This document shows, one piece after another, positions 8,893-15,187 of a stretch of 34,147 nucleotides of DNA (positions are counted from its first letter, which is position 1; every line of letters begins with the position of its first letter). The notes under the pieces are model-generated. The model was not told where the DNA came from. It made no database searches and was given only the letters and a program-made list of their open reading frames with translations. A program made the position numbers and the translations under genes. Origin of the DNA: Actinomyces dentalis DSM 19115 (GTDB taxonomy: Bacteria > Actinomycetota > Actinomycetes > Actinomycetales > Actinomycetaceae); NCBI RefSeq assembly GCF_000429225.1, contig NZ_AUBL01000046.1, forward strand, positions 1 to 34,147, in the 5' to 3' direction.

Positions 8893-9123
8893 ATGGATGT
8901 TCAAGTCGATGTTGCCGAGGTCGAGGTTCATCTGTCCGAGCTCCTCGCACGGATCGAAGCCGGTGAGGAGATAACGTTGACGCGTGCGGGGCGCCCTGTG
9001 GCGACGCTCAGGCCCCTTGAACCTCCAGCGCGGAGGGTCTTCGGGGGTCGTCCCGACATCAAGATCCCGGACGAGTTCTTCTTCGAGCCCCTGGCGGACG
9101 AGGAACTCGCCCTGTGGGAGTAG
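8893..9123 (+). CDS. Phd/YefM-family antitoxin
   Basis: The 76-residue product shows the antitoxin pattern MDVQVDVAEVEVHLSELLARIEAGEEITLTRAGRP split over two elements: an N-terminal beta-strand and helix (residues 1-30), then EEITLTRAGRPVATLRP. The C-terminal tail (IPDEFFFEPLADEELALWE) is acidic and aromatic, as in antitoxins that wrap and neutralise a PIN toxin. It is expected to bind its own promoter together with the toxin. The PIN gene begins eight bases after its stop, or overlaps it if an earlier GTG is used. Confidence 0.85.
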   Translation: MDVQVDVAEVEVHLSELLARIEAGEEITLTRAGRPVATLRPLEPPARRVFGGRPDIKIPDEFFFEPLADEELALWE

Positions 9124-9131
9124 TGACCTCG

Positions 9132-9524
9132 ATGGGGCTCCTTCTGGACACTCATGTTGTAGTGTGGCTCGTCACGAACCCAGGACGACTAAGACCCGTA
9201 GTTCTCGATGTACTTGCGGATTCGCGACAAGTGCTCTTCGTATCGGCTATCAGTGCATACGAGGTGGCTCAAAAGGTTCGACTGGGAAAATGGCCTCAGG
9301 CGGAGTCTCTTTCACTGGATTGGGATGAGTTGGTGGCGAGCACGGATGTCCTGAGCCTTCCTCTGGAATCTGCCGATGCATTGATGGCCGGTCGACTCTC
9401 TTGGGATCATCGGGATCCTTTCGACCGCCTCATTGCGGCCCAGGCGATGAGACGCGGATACCAGTTGGTCAGTGCTGATCGCGTCTTCCGCTCTCTCGAC
9501 GGGCTGCTGCTGCTGTCCGCATGA
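9132..9524 (+). CDS. VapC-like PIN-domain toxin
   Basis: This 130-residue PIN-domain ribonuclease starts MGLLLDTHVVVWL. The acidic metal-binding residues are visible: D6 in LLDTH, E in SAYEVAQK (about 42), D in WDHRDPFDRLIAAQA (about 97-101), and D in VSADRVF. With the preceding antitoxin it forms a type II toxin-antitoxin module. It probably cleaves tRNA or another RNA when released. In-frame GTG codons at 9114 and 9123 are alternative starts; ATG 9132 fits the family N-terminus and has GGGAG about 12 bases upstream. The gene is visibly less GC-rich than its neighbours, suggesting recent transfer. Confidence 0.85.
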   Translation: MGLLLDTHVVVWLVTNPGRLRPVVLDVLADSRQVLFVSAISAYEVAQKVRLGKWPQAESLSLDWDELVASTDVLSLPLESADALMAGRLSWDHRDPFDRLIAAQAMRRGYQLVSADRVFRSLDGLLLLSA

Positions 9525-11553: not shown

Positions 11554-11657
11554 CCCCGCCAATGAGCCCGCACTCCGGTCGAGGCGGCCGGGGGAGAGGG
11601 GGAGGGCGGGCCCGGCGCCGTCGTCGCCGTGACGGGCGCCGCGCACCGCGGGGCCCG
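11554..11657. other. Short convergent gap
   Basis: About 100 bases of GC-rich sequence separate two convergent genes. I see GC-rich complementary runs but no convincing terminator with a T-run. Confidence 0.4.
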
Positions 11658-12248
11658 TCAGTCGGCGTTCGCGCTCCAGGCGCGGAGCTCCTCCTCGACC
11701 ACGGACCTCGCCCACTGCCGGCTCGTCCCCGGCTCCTCCTGGACGAGGTGGAAGGCCAGTCCGTCGATGACGACGTGGAGCCTGCGGGCGCGCTCGTCGA
11801 GCCGCTCCTCGCCCGCGTCGGGGCGGATGCGGGCGAGGAGGCGCCGGCAGAGGCGGTAGAGCTCGTCCCGGGCGCGGTCCCGGATCCGCAGGAGCCCCCG
11901 GTCCGCCCCCGCCTCCGCGATGAGCGCGACATTGATCTCCATCTCGGCGCGGCTCGCCGAGTCCGTGGGGACCAGGTGGAGCAGGACCTCGGTCGCGTAG
12001 GCCAGGGCGCTCTGATCGGTTGGCACCGCCCGGACGCGCCGGGTGACATTGTCGATCATCAGCTCGGCCGCGGAGGTGAGCAGGGCGCTGCGGGTCGGGA
12101 AGACGTGCCGGAGCGACCCCACCGACACACCCGCGGCGGCGGCGACCGTGCGGAGGGACACTGCCGAGACGCCGTGGTGGTGGATCACGGACCACAGCGC
12201 CTCGACGAGTTCGGCCTTGCGGGCGGCGCGGTCGATTCTGCGGGGCAT
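11658..12248 (-). CDS. TetR-family regulator
   Basis: The 196-residue protein begins MPRRIDRAARKAELVEALW. An N-terminal helix-turn-helix spans about residues 25-55 (VSLRTVAAAAGVSVGSLRHVFPTRSALL), followed by a helical ligand-binding domain. ATG 12248 forms one edge of a 42-bp perfect palindrome whose other edge is the ATG of the divergent membrane-protein gene. This placement strongly suggests that the regulator represses itself and that gene through the palindrome. The -10 box TACCAT on this strand (12260-12255) is six bases before the ATG, so its mRNA would be leaderless. The ligand is unknown. Confidence 0.88.
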   Translation of the reverse strand: MPRRIDRAARKAELVEALWSVIHHHGVSAVSLRTVAAAAGVSVGSLRHVFPTRSALLTSAAELMIDNVTRRVRAVPTDQSALAYATEVLLHLVPTDSASRAEMEINVALIAEAGADRGLLRIRDRARDELYRLCRRLLARIRPDAGEERLDERARRLHVVIDGLAFHLVQEEPGTSRQWARSVVEEELRAWSANAD

Positions 12249-12287
12249 GATCGTATGGTAGCACGATCGTGCTACCATACGATCATG
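12246..12287. promoter_or_regulatory. 42-bp perfect palindrome: divergent promoters, operator and both start codons
   Basis: The sequence reads identically on both strands from 12246 to 12287, centred on GATC at 12265-12268. Each end is a start codon (tetR ATG 12248-12246; CPBP ATG 12285-12287). Each strand carries TACCAT six bases before its ATG (12255-12260 minus, 12273-12278 plus). The core TAGCACGATCGTGCTA is a likely TetR operator. The two promoters overlap, so RNA polymerase binding on one strand should exclude the other. Confidence 0.8.
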
Positions 12288-13253
12288 AATGACGATCCGG
12301 ATGCGGCGGCCGCTCCAGATGCGGCGGATTCAGCCGCCCCGACCCGGCGGGGGGCGCTCGCGAGGGCGCTCATCGGCTGGGCGGTGCTGAGCCTGGGGGT
12401 CGAGTTCTCGATAACGATCGCACGGCTCATAAGGGCCCGGGTCGCGGCGGGCCCCGCCTTCGTCCCCGTGCTCCAGGCGGTCCTGACCCCGATGATCGTC
12501 GTCCCCGCCGTTGTGATCCTCCGACGGCGGCTCGATCGCAGACCCCTCCGAGGAGCCGGGGGGATCGGCCTGGCCCGACGCTGGCCGGCCGCGGCCGTAA
12601 CGGGTGCCGCCGTCGGCCTCGGCGCCGGAGCGCTGGTGTGGGCCCCTGCGTTCTGGGCTGGGTGGATCCGCCTCGATCACTTCGATCCGACGGCGCTCAT
12701 CACCTTCCTCGCGGTCAACACCGCCGTCCTGCTGCTGTACGAGGCGCTGCCCGAGGAACTGGCACTGCGCGGCTACGGATGGTCCACGATGCGCGAGGCG
12801 TGGTCCCCGTTCGCGGCCACCGCGACCATCACGGCGCTCTTCTGCCTCAACATGGTCCCGGGGAACCTCATCCGGGCGGCGGCCTCGGTCCTCCTCCCCG
12901 GCGTCGAGATGACGGGCTTCCCTCTGGCGCCGAGCGGAGCCGATCCCATCGTCTACCTGACGCAGATGCTCATCTTCGGTCTTGCCCTCATCGCGGCCCG
13001 ACGCCTCCCGCTTCCGGGTGCGCTCACCGCTGCGATCGCCTTCCACGTCACCGTCCTGACCGTCAACCGTGTGCTTCTGGGCGGCCTGAGGTGGATCGAT
13101 TCCGGAGTCAGAACCGGGCTCGCCGCCCCGGAGGTCGCCGCCCTCACCCTCGCGCACCCCGTGGTCGGCGGCGTGCTCTTCATCCTCATCCGACGGTGGC
13201 TGGAGCGTCGCACCGAGATCCGCGCCGGGGCCAGTGGCCCGACGGAGCGATAA
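12285..13253 (+). CDS. CPBP-family intramembrane protein (Abi-like)
   Basis: This 322-residue protein has about eight hydrophobic segments. It carries the first CPBP motif EExxxR at residues 157-162 (EELALR) and a late His (H254, AFHVTVLTVN, with N261) matching the third motif. The second motif FxxxH is not intact: the expected His appears as Asn (ALFCLNM, N189). CPBP proteins are intramembrane glutamic proteases related to Rce1 and are found in bacteriocin immunity and processing, but whether this variant is active is doubtful. Its start is embedded in the operator palindrome of the divergent TetR gene, so it is probably induced when TetR binds its ligand. Confidence 0.75.
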   Translation: MNDDPDAAAAPDAADSAAPTRRGALARALIGWAVLSLGVEFSITIARLIRARVAAGPAFVPVLQAVLTPMIVVPAVVILRRRLDRRPLRGAGGIGLARRWPAAAVTGAAVGLGAGALVWAPAFWAGWIRLDHFDPTALITFLAVNTAVLLLYEALPEELALRGYGWSTMREAWSPFAATATITALFCLNMVPGNLIRAAASVLLPGVEMTGFPLAPSGADPIVYLTQMLIFGLALIAARRLPLPGALTAAIAFHVTVLTVNRVLLGGLRWIDSGVRTGLAAPEVAALTLAHPVVGGVLFILIRRWLERRTEIRAGASGPTER

Positions 13254-13387
13254 CGCCCGCGCCGCGAGCGCGCCCACGCCCCGCCGATTGCCCGCGCTCG
13301 CGGCCATCGGACGCCCCCGTCCGCGCCGGGGGAGCGCCGGCGGTCCGCGGCCGGACGGGCCCGCTGGCCCGCGCCGTCGCGCGGCGC
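13254..13387. other. Gap between CPBP gene and hflX leader
   Basis: About 135 very GC-rich bases with no supported gene. It should contain the upstream part of the hflX promoter, but I see no convincing -35 hexamer. Confidence 0.4.
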
Positions 13388-13393
13388 TACCAT
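13388..13393 (+). promoter_or_regulatory. -10 box of hflX leader transcript
   Basis: TACCAT ends six bases before ATG 13400. The same hexamer at the same distance occurs in the TetR/CPBP promoters, supporting transcription starting at this ATG. Confidence 0.5.
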
Positions 13394-13399
13394 GCCGCC

Positions 13400-13423
13400 A
13401 TGTGGATCGTCCGTATGCGTTGA
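13400..13423 (+). CDS. Seven-codon leader peptide MWIVRMR upstream of hflX
   Basis: ATG TGG ATC GTC CGT ATG CGT TGA follows a TACCAT -10 box by exactly six bases, so it would be the first thing translated on a leaderless transcript. The peptide ends Arg-Met-Arg, matching the Arg/Lys-X-Arg/Lys motif at which macrolide-bound ribosomes are known to stall (for example RLR in Erm leader peptides). The stop codon lies inside the left arm of a perfect 10-bp hairpin. The next gene encodes HflX, a ribosome-splitting GTPase linked to macrolide-lincosamide tolerance in mycobacteria. A regulatory leader peptide is therefore likely but unproven. Confidence 0.5.
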   Translation: MWIVRMR

Positions 13424-13502
13424 GCCGATGACGGCTCAACGCGCCGTCTGCCCCCATCCGCGCCCGGCACGCCGGGCGGGCCCGCCGCCGAGCCGCGGGC
13501 CC
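13417..13502 (+). promoter_or_regulatory. Candidate attenuator hairpins in hflX leader
   Basis: Hairpin 1 pairs GCGTTGAGCC (13417-13426) with GGCTCAACGC (13433-13442) and contains the leader stop codon. A competing hairpin pairs GACGGC (13430-13435) with GCCGTC (13443-13448) and cannot form together with hairpin 1. Two further stems follow: CGCCCGGC/GCCGGGCG (13461-13478) and GGGCCCGC/GCGGGCCC (13478-13502), which share base 13478. No T-run is visible, so any termination would be non-canonical. GC-rich DNA forms stems easily, so this needs testing. Confidence 0.4.
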
Positions 13503-13522
13503 CGCACGCAAAGGACCCCTCA

Positions 13523-15187
13523 GTGACCCCAGACAGCAACCGCACCCCGCTGCCGAATCAGCAGGCCGACGGCGCCGACGTCGTCGCCCGGCCCGGCCCG
13601 GAGCCCGCCGCCGAGCCCGGCTCCGGCTCACTGGCCGGGGCCGCCGCCGAGCCCGCCGAGCCGCGGGCCACGGCCGCCGCCCCCTCCGCCGAGGACATCG
13701 TCTCGCGCATCCTGTCCCGGCACGGCACGGCCCTGGCCTCCACCGCCGGCGAGCACGAGCAGCGCGAGGCCGACGACGACGGCGCCCTGGAGCGCGAGGC
13801 CCGCGCCGCCCGCCGCGCGGTCGGCCCCGCCGCCGGGCCGGAGGACGTCTCCGAGGTCGAGTACCGCCGGGTGCGCCTGGAGCGCGTCGTGCTCGTCGGC
13901 CTGGACCTGCCCGGCGCCGCCCCCGCGTCCGCCGGGGCCCGAGCCGCCTCGCCGGGCGCCGTCGGCTCCCAGGACGCCGAGACGAGCCTGGCCGAGCTCG
14001 CCGCCCTGGCCCAGACCGCCGGGAGCGAGGTCCTCGACGCCCTCATCCAGCGGCGCGACCACCCCGACCCTGCCACCTACCTGGGGTCCGGCAAGGCCAG
14101 GGAGCTGGCCGAGACGGTCGCCGCCGTCGGCGCCGACACGGTCATCGTCGACGGCGAGCTCGCCCCCTCCCAGCGCCGCGCCCTGGAGGACGTCGTCGAC
14201 GCCAAGGTCGTCGACCGCACCGCCGTCATCCTCGACATCTTCGCCCAGCACGCCAAGTCCCGCGAGGGCAAGGCCCAGGTCGAGCTCGCCCAGCTGGAGT
14301 ACCTGCTGCCGCGCCTGCGCGGCTGGGGCGAGTCCATGTCCCGCCAGGCCGGGGGGCGCGTCGCCGGCGGGGCGGGCATCGGCGCGAGGGGCCCGGGCGA
14401 GACCAAGATCGAGCTCGACCGGCGCCGCATCCGCCGGCGCATGGCCAAGCTGCGCCGCGAGATCAGCGCCATGGCGCCCTCGCGGGAGGTCAAGCGCGGC
14501 TCGCGCCGCCGCGGCCCCATCCCCTCGGTGGCGATCGCCGGGTACACCAACGCCGGCAAGTCCTCCCTCATGAACCGTCTCACCGGCGCCGACCTCATGG
14601 TGCAGGACGCCCTGTTCGCCACCCTGGACCCCACGGTGCGGCGGGCCGAGACCTCCGACGGGCGCCTCTACACCCTCACCGACACGGTGGGCTTCGTGCG
14701 CAATCTGCCCCACGAGCTCGTCGAGGCCTTCCGCTCCACCCTGGAGGAGGTGGCCGGGGCGGATCTGGTCGTGCACGTCGTCGACGCCGCCCACCCCGAC
14801 CCGCTGGGCCAGGTCGCCGCCGTGCGCACCGTCCTGGCGGACATCCCCGGGGCGCTGGAGGTGCCCGAGCTCATCGCCCTCAACAAGGCCGACCTGGTCG
14901 ACGGCGTCGCCCTGGCGGCCCTGCGCACCCGCCTGCCCGGGGCGGTGGCCGTCTCGGCCCGCACCGGGCGGGGCCTGTCCGAGCTGCGCGAGCGCATCGA
15001 GGCGATGCTGCCGCGCCCCGACGTCGCCGTCGACGTCGTCGTGCCCTACTCGCGCGGCGACCTGGTCGCCCGGGTCCACGCCGACGGCGAGATCGAGTCC
15101 ATCGACTACGTCCCGGAGGGCACCCGGGTGCACGCCCGCGTCGACGCCCCGCTGGCCGCCGAGCTGTGGGCCTGCGCCGTCGAGTGA
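13523..15187 (+). CDS. hflX: GTPase HflX
   Basis: This 554-residue ribosome-associated GTPase splits or rescues stalled 70S ribosomes by acting on the 50S subunit. An Ala/Glu/Pro-rich N-terminal extension of about 100 residues precedes the HflX N-domain (EYRRVRLERVVLVGLDL, then TYLGSGKARELAETV and the ELAPSQRRALE region). A GGRVAGGAGIGARGPGETK-type linker follows, then the G domain: G1 GYTNAGKSS (about 340-348), G3 DTVGF (about 387), G4 NKAD (about 454). GTG 13523 follows AAAGGA by seven bases. The upstream leader peptide and hairpins suggest attenuation control. Its stop overlaps the helicase start as GTGA, so the two are probably co-translated. Confidence 0.93.
   Translation: MTPDSNRTPLPNQQADGADVVARPGPEPAAEPGSGSLAGAAAEPAEPRATAAAPSAEDIVSRILSRHGTALASTAGEHEQREADDDGALEREARAARRAVGPAAGPEDVSEVEYRRVRLERVVLVGLDLPGAAPASAGARAASPGAVGSQDAETSLAELAALAQTAGSEVLDALIQRRDHPDPATYLGSGKARELAETVAAVGADTVIVDGELAPSQRRALEDVVDAKVVDRTAVILDIFAQHAKSREGKAQVELAQLEYLLPRLRGWGESMSRQAGGRVAGGAGIGARGPGETKIELDRRRIRRRMAKLRREISAMAPSREVKRGSRRRGPIPSVAIAGYTNAGKSSLMNRLTGADLMVQDALFATLDPTVRRAETSDGRLYTLTDTVGFVRNLPHELVEAFRSTLEEVAGADLVVHVVDAAHPDPLGQVAAVRTVLADIPGALEVPELIALNKADLVDGVALAALRTRLPGAVAVSARTGRGLSELRERIEAMLPRPDVAVDVVVPYSRGDLVARVHADGEIESIDYVPEGTRVHARVDAPLAAELWACAVE

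Follow-up and report, generated by a model that had tools for sequence, protein, structure and literature searches.

In translational attenuators of the cat-86 and cmlA type, a stem with the leader ORF as one arm sequesters the Shine-Dalgarno sequence (SD), and a ribosome stalled in the leader opens it. Among macrolide-responsive leader peptides, the motif +X+ (Arg/Lys-X-Arg/Lys) arrests drug-bound ribosomes, as in ErmDL (MTHSMRLR), where arrest takes place at codon 7; not every +X+ motif stalls, and the N-terminal residues matter (PMC8298421). An independent in vitro survey with erythromycin returned +X(+) and XP(X) motifs (PMC6238534). Short Arg-X-Arg ORFs have also been described upstream of hflX. 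In Listeria monocytogenes, lincomycin and erythromycin induce hflXr (lmo0762) through the leader rli80, which contains a 14-amino-acid Arg-Leu-Arg ORF and works by transcription attenuation, and an HflX homologue confers erythromycin tolerance in this genus (PMC6310831). In Bacillales, hflX can follow a structured leader, the uORFC-6-1 motif, in which a small Arg-Leu-Arg ORF is conserved (PMC8632094). In Streptomyces, hflX is induced on translation stress under WblC/WhiB7 control, HflX confers erythromycin tolerance, and an hflX mutant shows raised erythromycin sensitivity (PMC7157823).

The leader considered here precedes hflX in Actinomyces dentalis DSM 19115, in a stretch of 34,147 nucleotides (contig NZ_AUBL01000046.1) that is called the window in what follows. 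Like the cat-86 and cmlA leaders, it would hide the SD in one stem that a ribosome stalled in the leader-ORF arm opens; those leaders respond to chloramphenicol, encode other peptides and have ORFs with a Shine-Dalgarno sequence of their own. With the ermD/ErmDL +X+ leaders it shares a short Arg-X-Arg peptide and, as predicted here, arrest with X in the P site, and it differs from them in the gene controlled and in the N-terminal residues, which influence arrest (PMC8298421). The likeness to Listeria hflXr lies in an hflX homologue behind a short Arg-X-Arg ORF and in mutually exclusive RNA folds. However, the Listeria system is that of a Firmicute, relies on an intrinsic terminator and controls a second hflX copy (PMC6310831), whereas the Actinomyces ORF has seven codons and is probably leaderless, no intrinsic terminator-like site was found on either strand between 12900 and 13900, the predicted pairing reaches the SD, and the regulated gene is the genome's best HflX match. 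The uORFC-6-1 motif belongs to another phylum, encodes Arg-Leu-Arg instead of Arg-Met-Arg, and has its whole structure downstream of the start codon (PMC8632094). In Streptomyces, as is predicted here, induction of hflX follows translation stress, but the regulator is a transcription factor, itself uORF-controlled, that acts at the promoter, in contrast to a cis element in the hflX leader (PMC7157823).

Arg-Leu-Arg leaders at hflX are already known from Listeria (PMC6310831) and Bacillales (PMC8632094), and the Actinomyces leader is a new variant. No report of this element, or of the peptides MWILRMR, MWIFRMR, MWIVRMR or MWITRMP, was found in the open-licence literature searched, and an Rfam scan gave no match in the window. 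The leader is classed as a real, lineage-wide element that resembles ermD-type, cat-type and Firmicute hflX leaders; since no intrinsic terminator was found, it falls outside the terminator-defined Listeria type of transcription attenuator. Its features, in window coordinates, are the following.

13388..13393, + strand: -10-like box TACCAT, read from the sequence, six bases from the micro-ORF ATG
13400..13423, + strand: micro-ORF MWIVRMR with its stop codon, probably leaderless; codons 3-7 double as the 5' arm of the predicted long-range stem
13409..13412, + strand: GTCC in codons 4-5, which can pair with GGAC (13513-13516) of the hflX SD
13416..13420, + strand: TGCGT in codons 6-7, which can pair with ACGCA (13506-13510); what is left of an 8-bp stem seen in other species
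13417..13442, + strand: hairpin 1, 10 bp, overlapping the last micro-ORF codons and the stop (sequence and pair check)
13430..13448, + strand: competing stem GACGGC/GCCGTC, six pairs, five of which appear in the fold computed with a ribosome over nt 1-31
13462..13477, + strand: local GC hairpin in the leader (minimum free energy, MFE, fold)
13478..13502, + strand: hairpin ahead of the 3' arm, counterpart of many relatives' GGTCCG..CGGACC hairpin (helix 2 of the alignment, MFE fold)
13506..13516, + strand: 3' arm ACGCA and hflX SD AAAGGAC (sequence reading)
13523..15187, + strand: hflX, GTG start, ribosome-splitting GTPase HflX (TIGR03156 match)

An earlier note on this DNA had pointed to the box six bases ahead of ATG 13400, a seven-codon ORF ending in Arg-Met-Arg, a 10-bp hairpin holding the stop codon together with a competing second stem, and HflX as the product of the downstream gene. 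The observation is confirmed. Direct reading of the window gives the box and the codons ATG TGG ATC GTC CGT ATG CGT TGA. The arms of hairpin 1, GCGTTGAGCC (13417-13426) and GGCTCAACGC (13433-13442), form ten pairs without a mismatch, and the stop codon lies within the hairpin; the arms of the competing stem are found at 13430-13435 and 13443-13448, and the two structures share bases, so they are mutually exclusive. The HflX protein scores 423.6 bits against TIGR03156 (cut-off 216.75), and AAAGGA at 13510-13515 precedes its start codon. HflX was detected in all 149 genomes searched.

The distance from a -10 box to the transcription start is usually 6-8 nt. In each of the 39 Actinomyces leaders that carry the micro-ORF, a TA...T hexamer ends 6 (15 leaders), 7 (22) or 8 (2) nt ahead of the start codon, which with the usual spacing puts the predicted 5' end at or near that codon. 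The transcript probably begins at the micro-ORF ATG or beside it, with leaderless translation of the ORF. A scan for sigma-70-type consensus promoters, which demands a -35 hexamer close to TTGACA, returned none in 12900-13900; by reading, many leaders have a TGG-containing stretch about 17-19 nt farther upstream.

Of the 49 genomes of the genus, 48 had their hflX leader oriented and read, G012 being left out (82% complete, with hflX in two overlapping frames on one contig). The micro-ORF is present in 39 of the 48, with ATG as the start codon in 38 and CTG in one (L016), and is thus conserved with hflX. The ORF length is constant, codons 2 (TGG, 39/39), 6 and 8 are invariant, codon 5 encodes Arg in all 39 and codon 7 in 36, and the third bases of both Arg codons vary synonymously. 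The peptide is MWIxRMR in 31 leaders; it ends in RMR in 36 and in RMP in three. The last codon is CCG (Pro) in L013, L018 and L024 and CGC (Arg) in L020 of the same clade, where the flanks and the 3' arm are different as well. Pairwise identity averages 0.88 over the 24-nt ORF, 0.48 over the next 24 nt and 0.42 in the stretch -42..-15, and leaders align poorly outside the micro-ORF. Nine leaders lack the ORF, which counts against an attenuator: L003, L047, and a set of seven (L005, L019, L023, L025, L027, L028 and L043) in which, by reading, a -10-like box lies 10-11 nt ahead of the likely hflX ATG. In this set hflX itself seems to be almost leaderless.

A search that did not start from hflX led to the same sites. 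Of the 49 genus genomes, 35 hold exactly one copy of the pattern ATGTGG-N6-CGNATGCGNTGA and none holds its reversed control; the 35 sites coincide with hflX leaders located independently via the HflX protein, and a whole-genome search of the incomplete G012 gave no match. Across 213 genomes of the family, ATGTGG-N6-CGNATGCNNTGA matched 40, of which 38 belong to the genus; the two outside it (G186 and G224) are at chance level, since the reversed control also matched two genomes (G021 and G082). A stricter pattern run against 84,980 species genomes returned 14 stretches, all titled Actinomyces, in a search that misses variants and may exclude records near the window's own. Outside the genus but within the family and order, a scan of 57 hflX loci for a short ORF behind a TA...T box turned up candidates at four (L091, L093, L102 and L110), none of which has the MW..RMR form. 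The candidates at L093 (MVVFRGR) and the far ones at L110 (one ending in RVR) were rejected, the neighbouring gene there lying on the opposite strand by reading of unannotated sequence. On the HflX tree, the presence of the micro-ORF needs three changes, of which well-supported branches force at least two, and none of 500 label shuffles came as low. A single gain in the ancestor of most of the genus, followed by two losses, is the simplest reading, compatible with the tree rather than proved by it: the bootstrap had not stabilised, 15 forks are undecided, and long branches lead to L047 and the outgroups.

The earlier note had placed the switch in the local hairpins; the comparison across Actinomyces favours a different pairing. 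In most leaders the Arg-Met-Arg codons read CGT ATG CG; most carry the complement, CGCATACG or GCATACG, directly before the hflX SD. In MFE folds from the ATG to the hflX start, at least six pairs join ORF nt 7-24 to the 34 nt before that start in 37 of 39 leaders, the long-range stem being absent from the folds of the window and L024, and at least two SD bases are paired with the ORF in 33. As modelled, the conserved structure consists of codons 3-7 and the stop codon paired with the stretch before, and often including, the SD, not of the local hairpins.

Several controls support this pairing. When arms were swapped between leaders (36 distinct pairs), 17 of 10,000 permutations were as good as the own combination. 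Own 3' arms reach -16.8 kcal/mol vs -11.2 for shuffled ones, and when the 5' arm is shuffled, the predicted probability that it pairs with the SD region drops from 0.51 to 0.10, the own arm being higher in 34 of 39. Ranked against its synonymous versions, the natural ORF has a median rank of 0.073 (0.085 when GC-matched); it stands within the top 5% in 18 of the 39 leaders and within the top 10% in 26, and it comes first among 648 versions in 11 of the 12 A. oris-group leaders. Blocking of nt 1-31, as by a stalled ribosome, lowers the cost of opening the hflX start in 32 leaders and raises it in seven, while 21 leaders gain more than 0.05 in predicted SD accessibility, six lose and 12 stay flat; for the 12 A. 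oris leaders this accessibility climbs from 0.02-0.12 to 0.32-0.80. In the alignment, 87.2% of cells are paired vs 84.0 in shuffles (0/500 as high) and 15-47% when slid, a count biased toward the structure, which was named by hand beforehand. Taken as predictions, these results make a good case for the long-range stem in the genus, strongest in the A. oris group.

Other results count against an attenuator. That one clade, made up of 12 close relatives, supplies the strongest support. Few two-sided changes occur in the 8-pair helix (one pair, four cells or rows, all in the CGG-codon clade), and compensatory pairs over the whole structure are ordinary (3 vs 2.0; 154/500 shuffles). About 11% of the 30-nt slices elsewhere in the loci match the real arm's pairing with the ORF, with none doing so in 16 of the 39, and some own arms are weaker than swapped ones, L001 included. 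The three Arg-Met-Pro endings fit none of the motifs +X+, X+P, XDK and XPW given in PMC8298421. RNAalifold, run on the MAFFT alignment, missed the long-range stem and returned four weak pairs (-0.16 kcal/mol), since the central part of the leader cannot be aligned. Directly before the 3' arm, many leaders have in common a sequence-conserved hairpin, GGTCCGTYGAGC..GCTCCGGACC, the counterpart of 13478-13502; in the A. oris group a GCGCCCC..GGGGCGC hairpin stands in its place.

Within the window, the MFE of the leader is -65.1 kcal/mol, and a fold with hairpin 1 plus GUCC paired to GGAC of the SD lies 1.3 kcal/mol above it (-63.8). The long-range fold with ACGCA and the SD reaches -61.1, and with the second stem enforced (-59.8) the SD is again paired with GUCC. 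The leader folds better than most dinucleotide shuffles (z -2.54; 4/200 as good). Predicted SD accessibility is unchanged by ORF blocking (0.28 vs 0.29) and the synonymous-codon rank is 0.157, both of which speak against an attenuator at this locus. The nearest relative, L002 (91% HflX identity), has ACGCATATGTGAAGGAC in the 3' arm region where the window has ACGCAAAGGAC, so the window's 3' arm is shorter. On these models the window is a weak or altered member, with a shortened 3' arm and with hairpin 1 competing for the 5' arm, and the switch of this species may be weaker or differently wired. The earlier note was drawn from the species in which the local hairpin is largest.

On balance, we consider it probable, with considerable room for doubt, that the element is a translational attenuator of hflX in which a macrolide-type drug stalls the ribosome at Arg-Met-Arg and frees the SD. 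Transcription would start at or near the micro-ORF ATG, and the ORF would be read as a leaderless mRNA whose codons 3-7 and stop form the 5' arm, the 3' arm lying directly before, and often including, the SD. After unhindered reading the ribosome would depart, the stem would close and hflX translation would be low. With a macrolide-type drug in the exit tunnel, the ribosome would halt with the P site occupied by Met6 and the A site by Arg7, and would cover the 5' arm; the SD region would stay open, and HflX would be made and split stalled ribosomes. Of the ribosome-mediated attenuation first proposed, the ORF, the box spacing and the conserved Arg-X-Arg end stand; the local hairpins as its switch give way to pairing of the ORF with the SD region. 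The motif invoked in its support is a documented macrolide and ketolide arrest motif (PMC8298421). HflX as the output fits a drug-sensing model, given the tolerance that it confers in Streptomyces (PMC7157823) and Listeria (PMC6310831). Comparison and computation supply the ORF, the promoter spacing, the hflX linkage and the pairing potential; we infer the stalling, the induction of hflX, the drug class and the 5' end.

A more ambitious reading, put forward tentatively and in our view rather doubtful, is that no self-contained antibiotic sensor of this kind is smaller: a single run of about 16 bases would encode a leaderless seven-codon arrest peptide, include the stop codon and act as the anti-Shine-Dalgarno of the target gene. 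HflX would then clear the ribosome from its own leader, closing the switch by a direct feedback that measures how much HflX substrate there is, and the element would be the cis answer of an actinobacterial lineage to the task that Streptomyces gives WhiB7.

Alternatively, the leader could be constitutive, routine translation of the leaderless ORF keeping the SD stem open or tuned without any drug sensing, and the Arg-Met-Arg codons being kept because CGUAUGCG is a stem arm. The left-arm bases are indeed codons, so pairing explains peptide conservation in part. However, ATG TGG lies mostly outside the stem and is nearly invariant, which together with the synonymous third-base changes in codons 5 and 7 suggests that the peptide is selected too; the controlled gene, moreover, rescues drug-stalled ribosomes. 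We regard this explanation as unlikely.

Transcriptional control, in which a stalled ribosome shifts the two local stems and averts premature, perhaps Rho-dependent, termination, has a precedent in Listeria hflXr (PMC6310831). With nt 1-31 of the window's leader blocked, the second stem forms all but one of its six pairs, so the stems would respond to a stall. Yet the stems are rarely kept: hairpin 1 has all ten pairs in the window alone and at least eight of ten at the same place in 6 of 39 leaders, and the second stem is complete in 2 of 39. The hflX SD is touched by neither, the region has none of the terminator-like sites sought, and the long-range pairing ends at the SD. The comparison of hflX-upstream regions thus upholds the micro-ORF of the earlier note and gives no support to its stems as the proposed switch, and we hold termination control to be distinctly improbable.

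A sensor of charged-tRNA shortage (Arg, Met or Trp) in place of a drug sensor would suit two Arg codons and one Trp codon among seven, but amino-acid attenuators normally carry runs of the sensed codon upstream of that amino acid's biosynthesis genes, and the idea appears very improbable. A functionless chance ORF in a GC-rich leader, conceivable for just seven codons seen in the window alone, is scarcely credible against the genus-wide conservation, the single copy per genome and the control counts.

An RGRP AT-hook is a mark of WhiB7. By eye it is missing from the four WhiB-family proteins of the window genome (L160-L163), and NCBIfam names none, so that WhiB7 may be absent from this genome. 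Three WhiB-family matches each were found in the micro-ORF-less clade (G005, G014, G029, G038, G045 and G047) and in the CGG-codon clade (G004, G032, G035 and G048), most other genus genomes having four. Elsewhere in the window, the gene upstream of hflX (11562-13253, + strand) resembles a CPBP intramembrane protease in its 3' part and is overlapped by a TetR-like regulator ORF (11658-12278, - strand), while two small overlapping ORFs at 8900-9524 (+ strand) resemble a Phd-type antitoxin and a PIN-domain toxin, all by eye.

If the translational attenuator is real, drug-responsive hflX leaders would extend from Firmicutes to Actinobacteria, with another peptide and a translational instead of a transcriptional output, which would suggest that hflX gained Arg-X-Arg leaders more than once. 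The leader would also offer a short, testable case of a leaderless ORF as a sensor, in which a 70S ribosome that started without a Shine-Dalgarno sequence carries a macrolide in its tunnel. The clearest predicted switch belongs to the group that includes the human oral species A. oris, A. naeslundii and A. johnsonii, where it could set the intrinsic response to macrolides.
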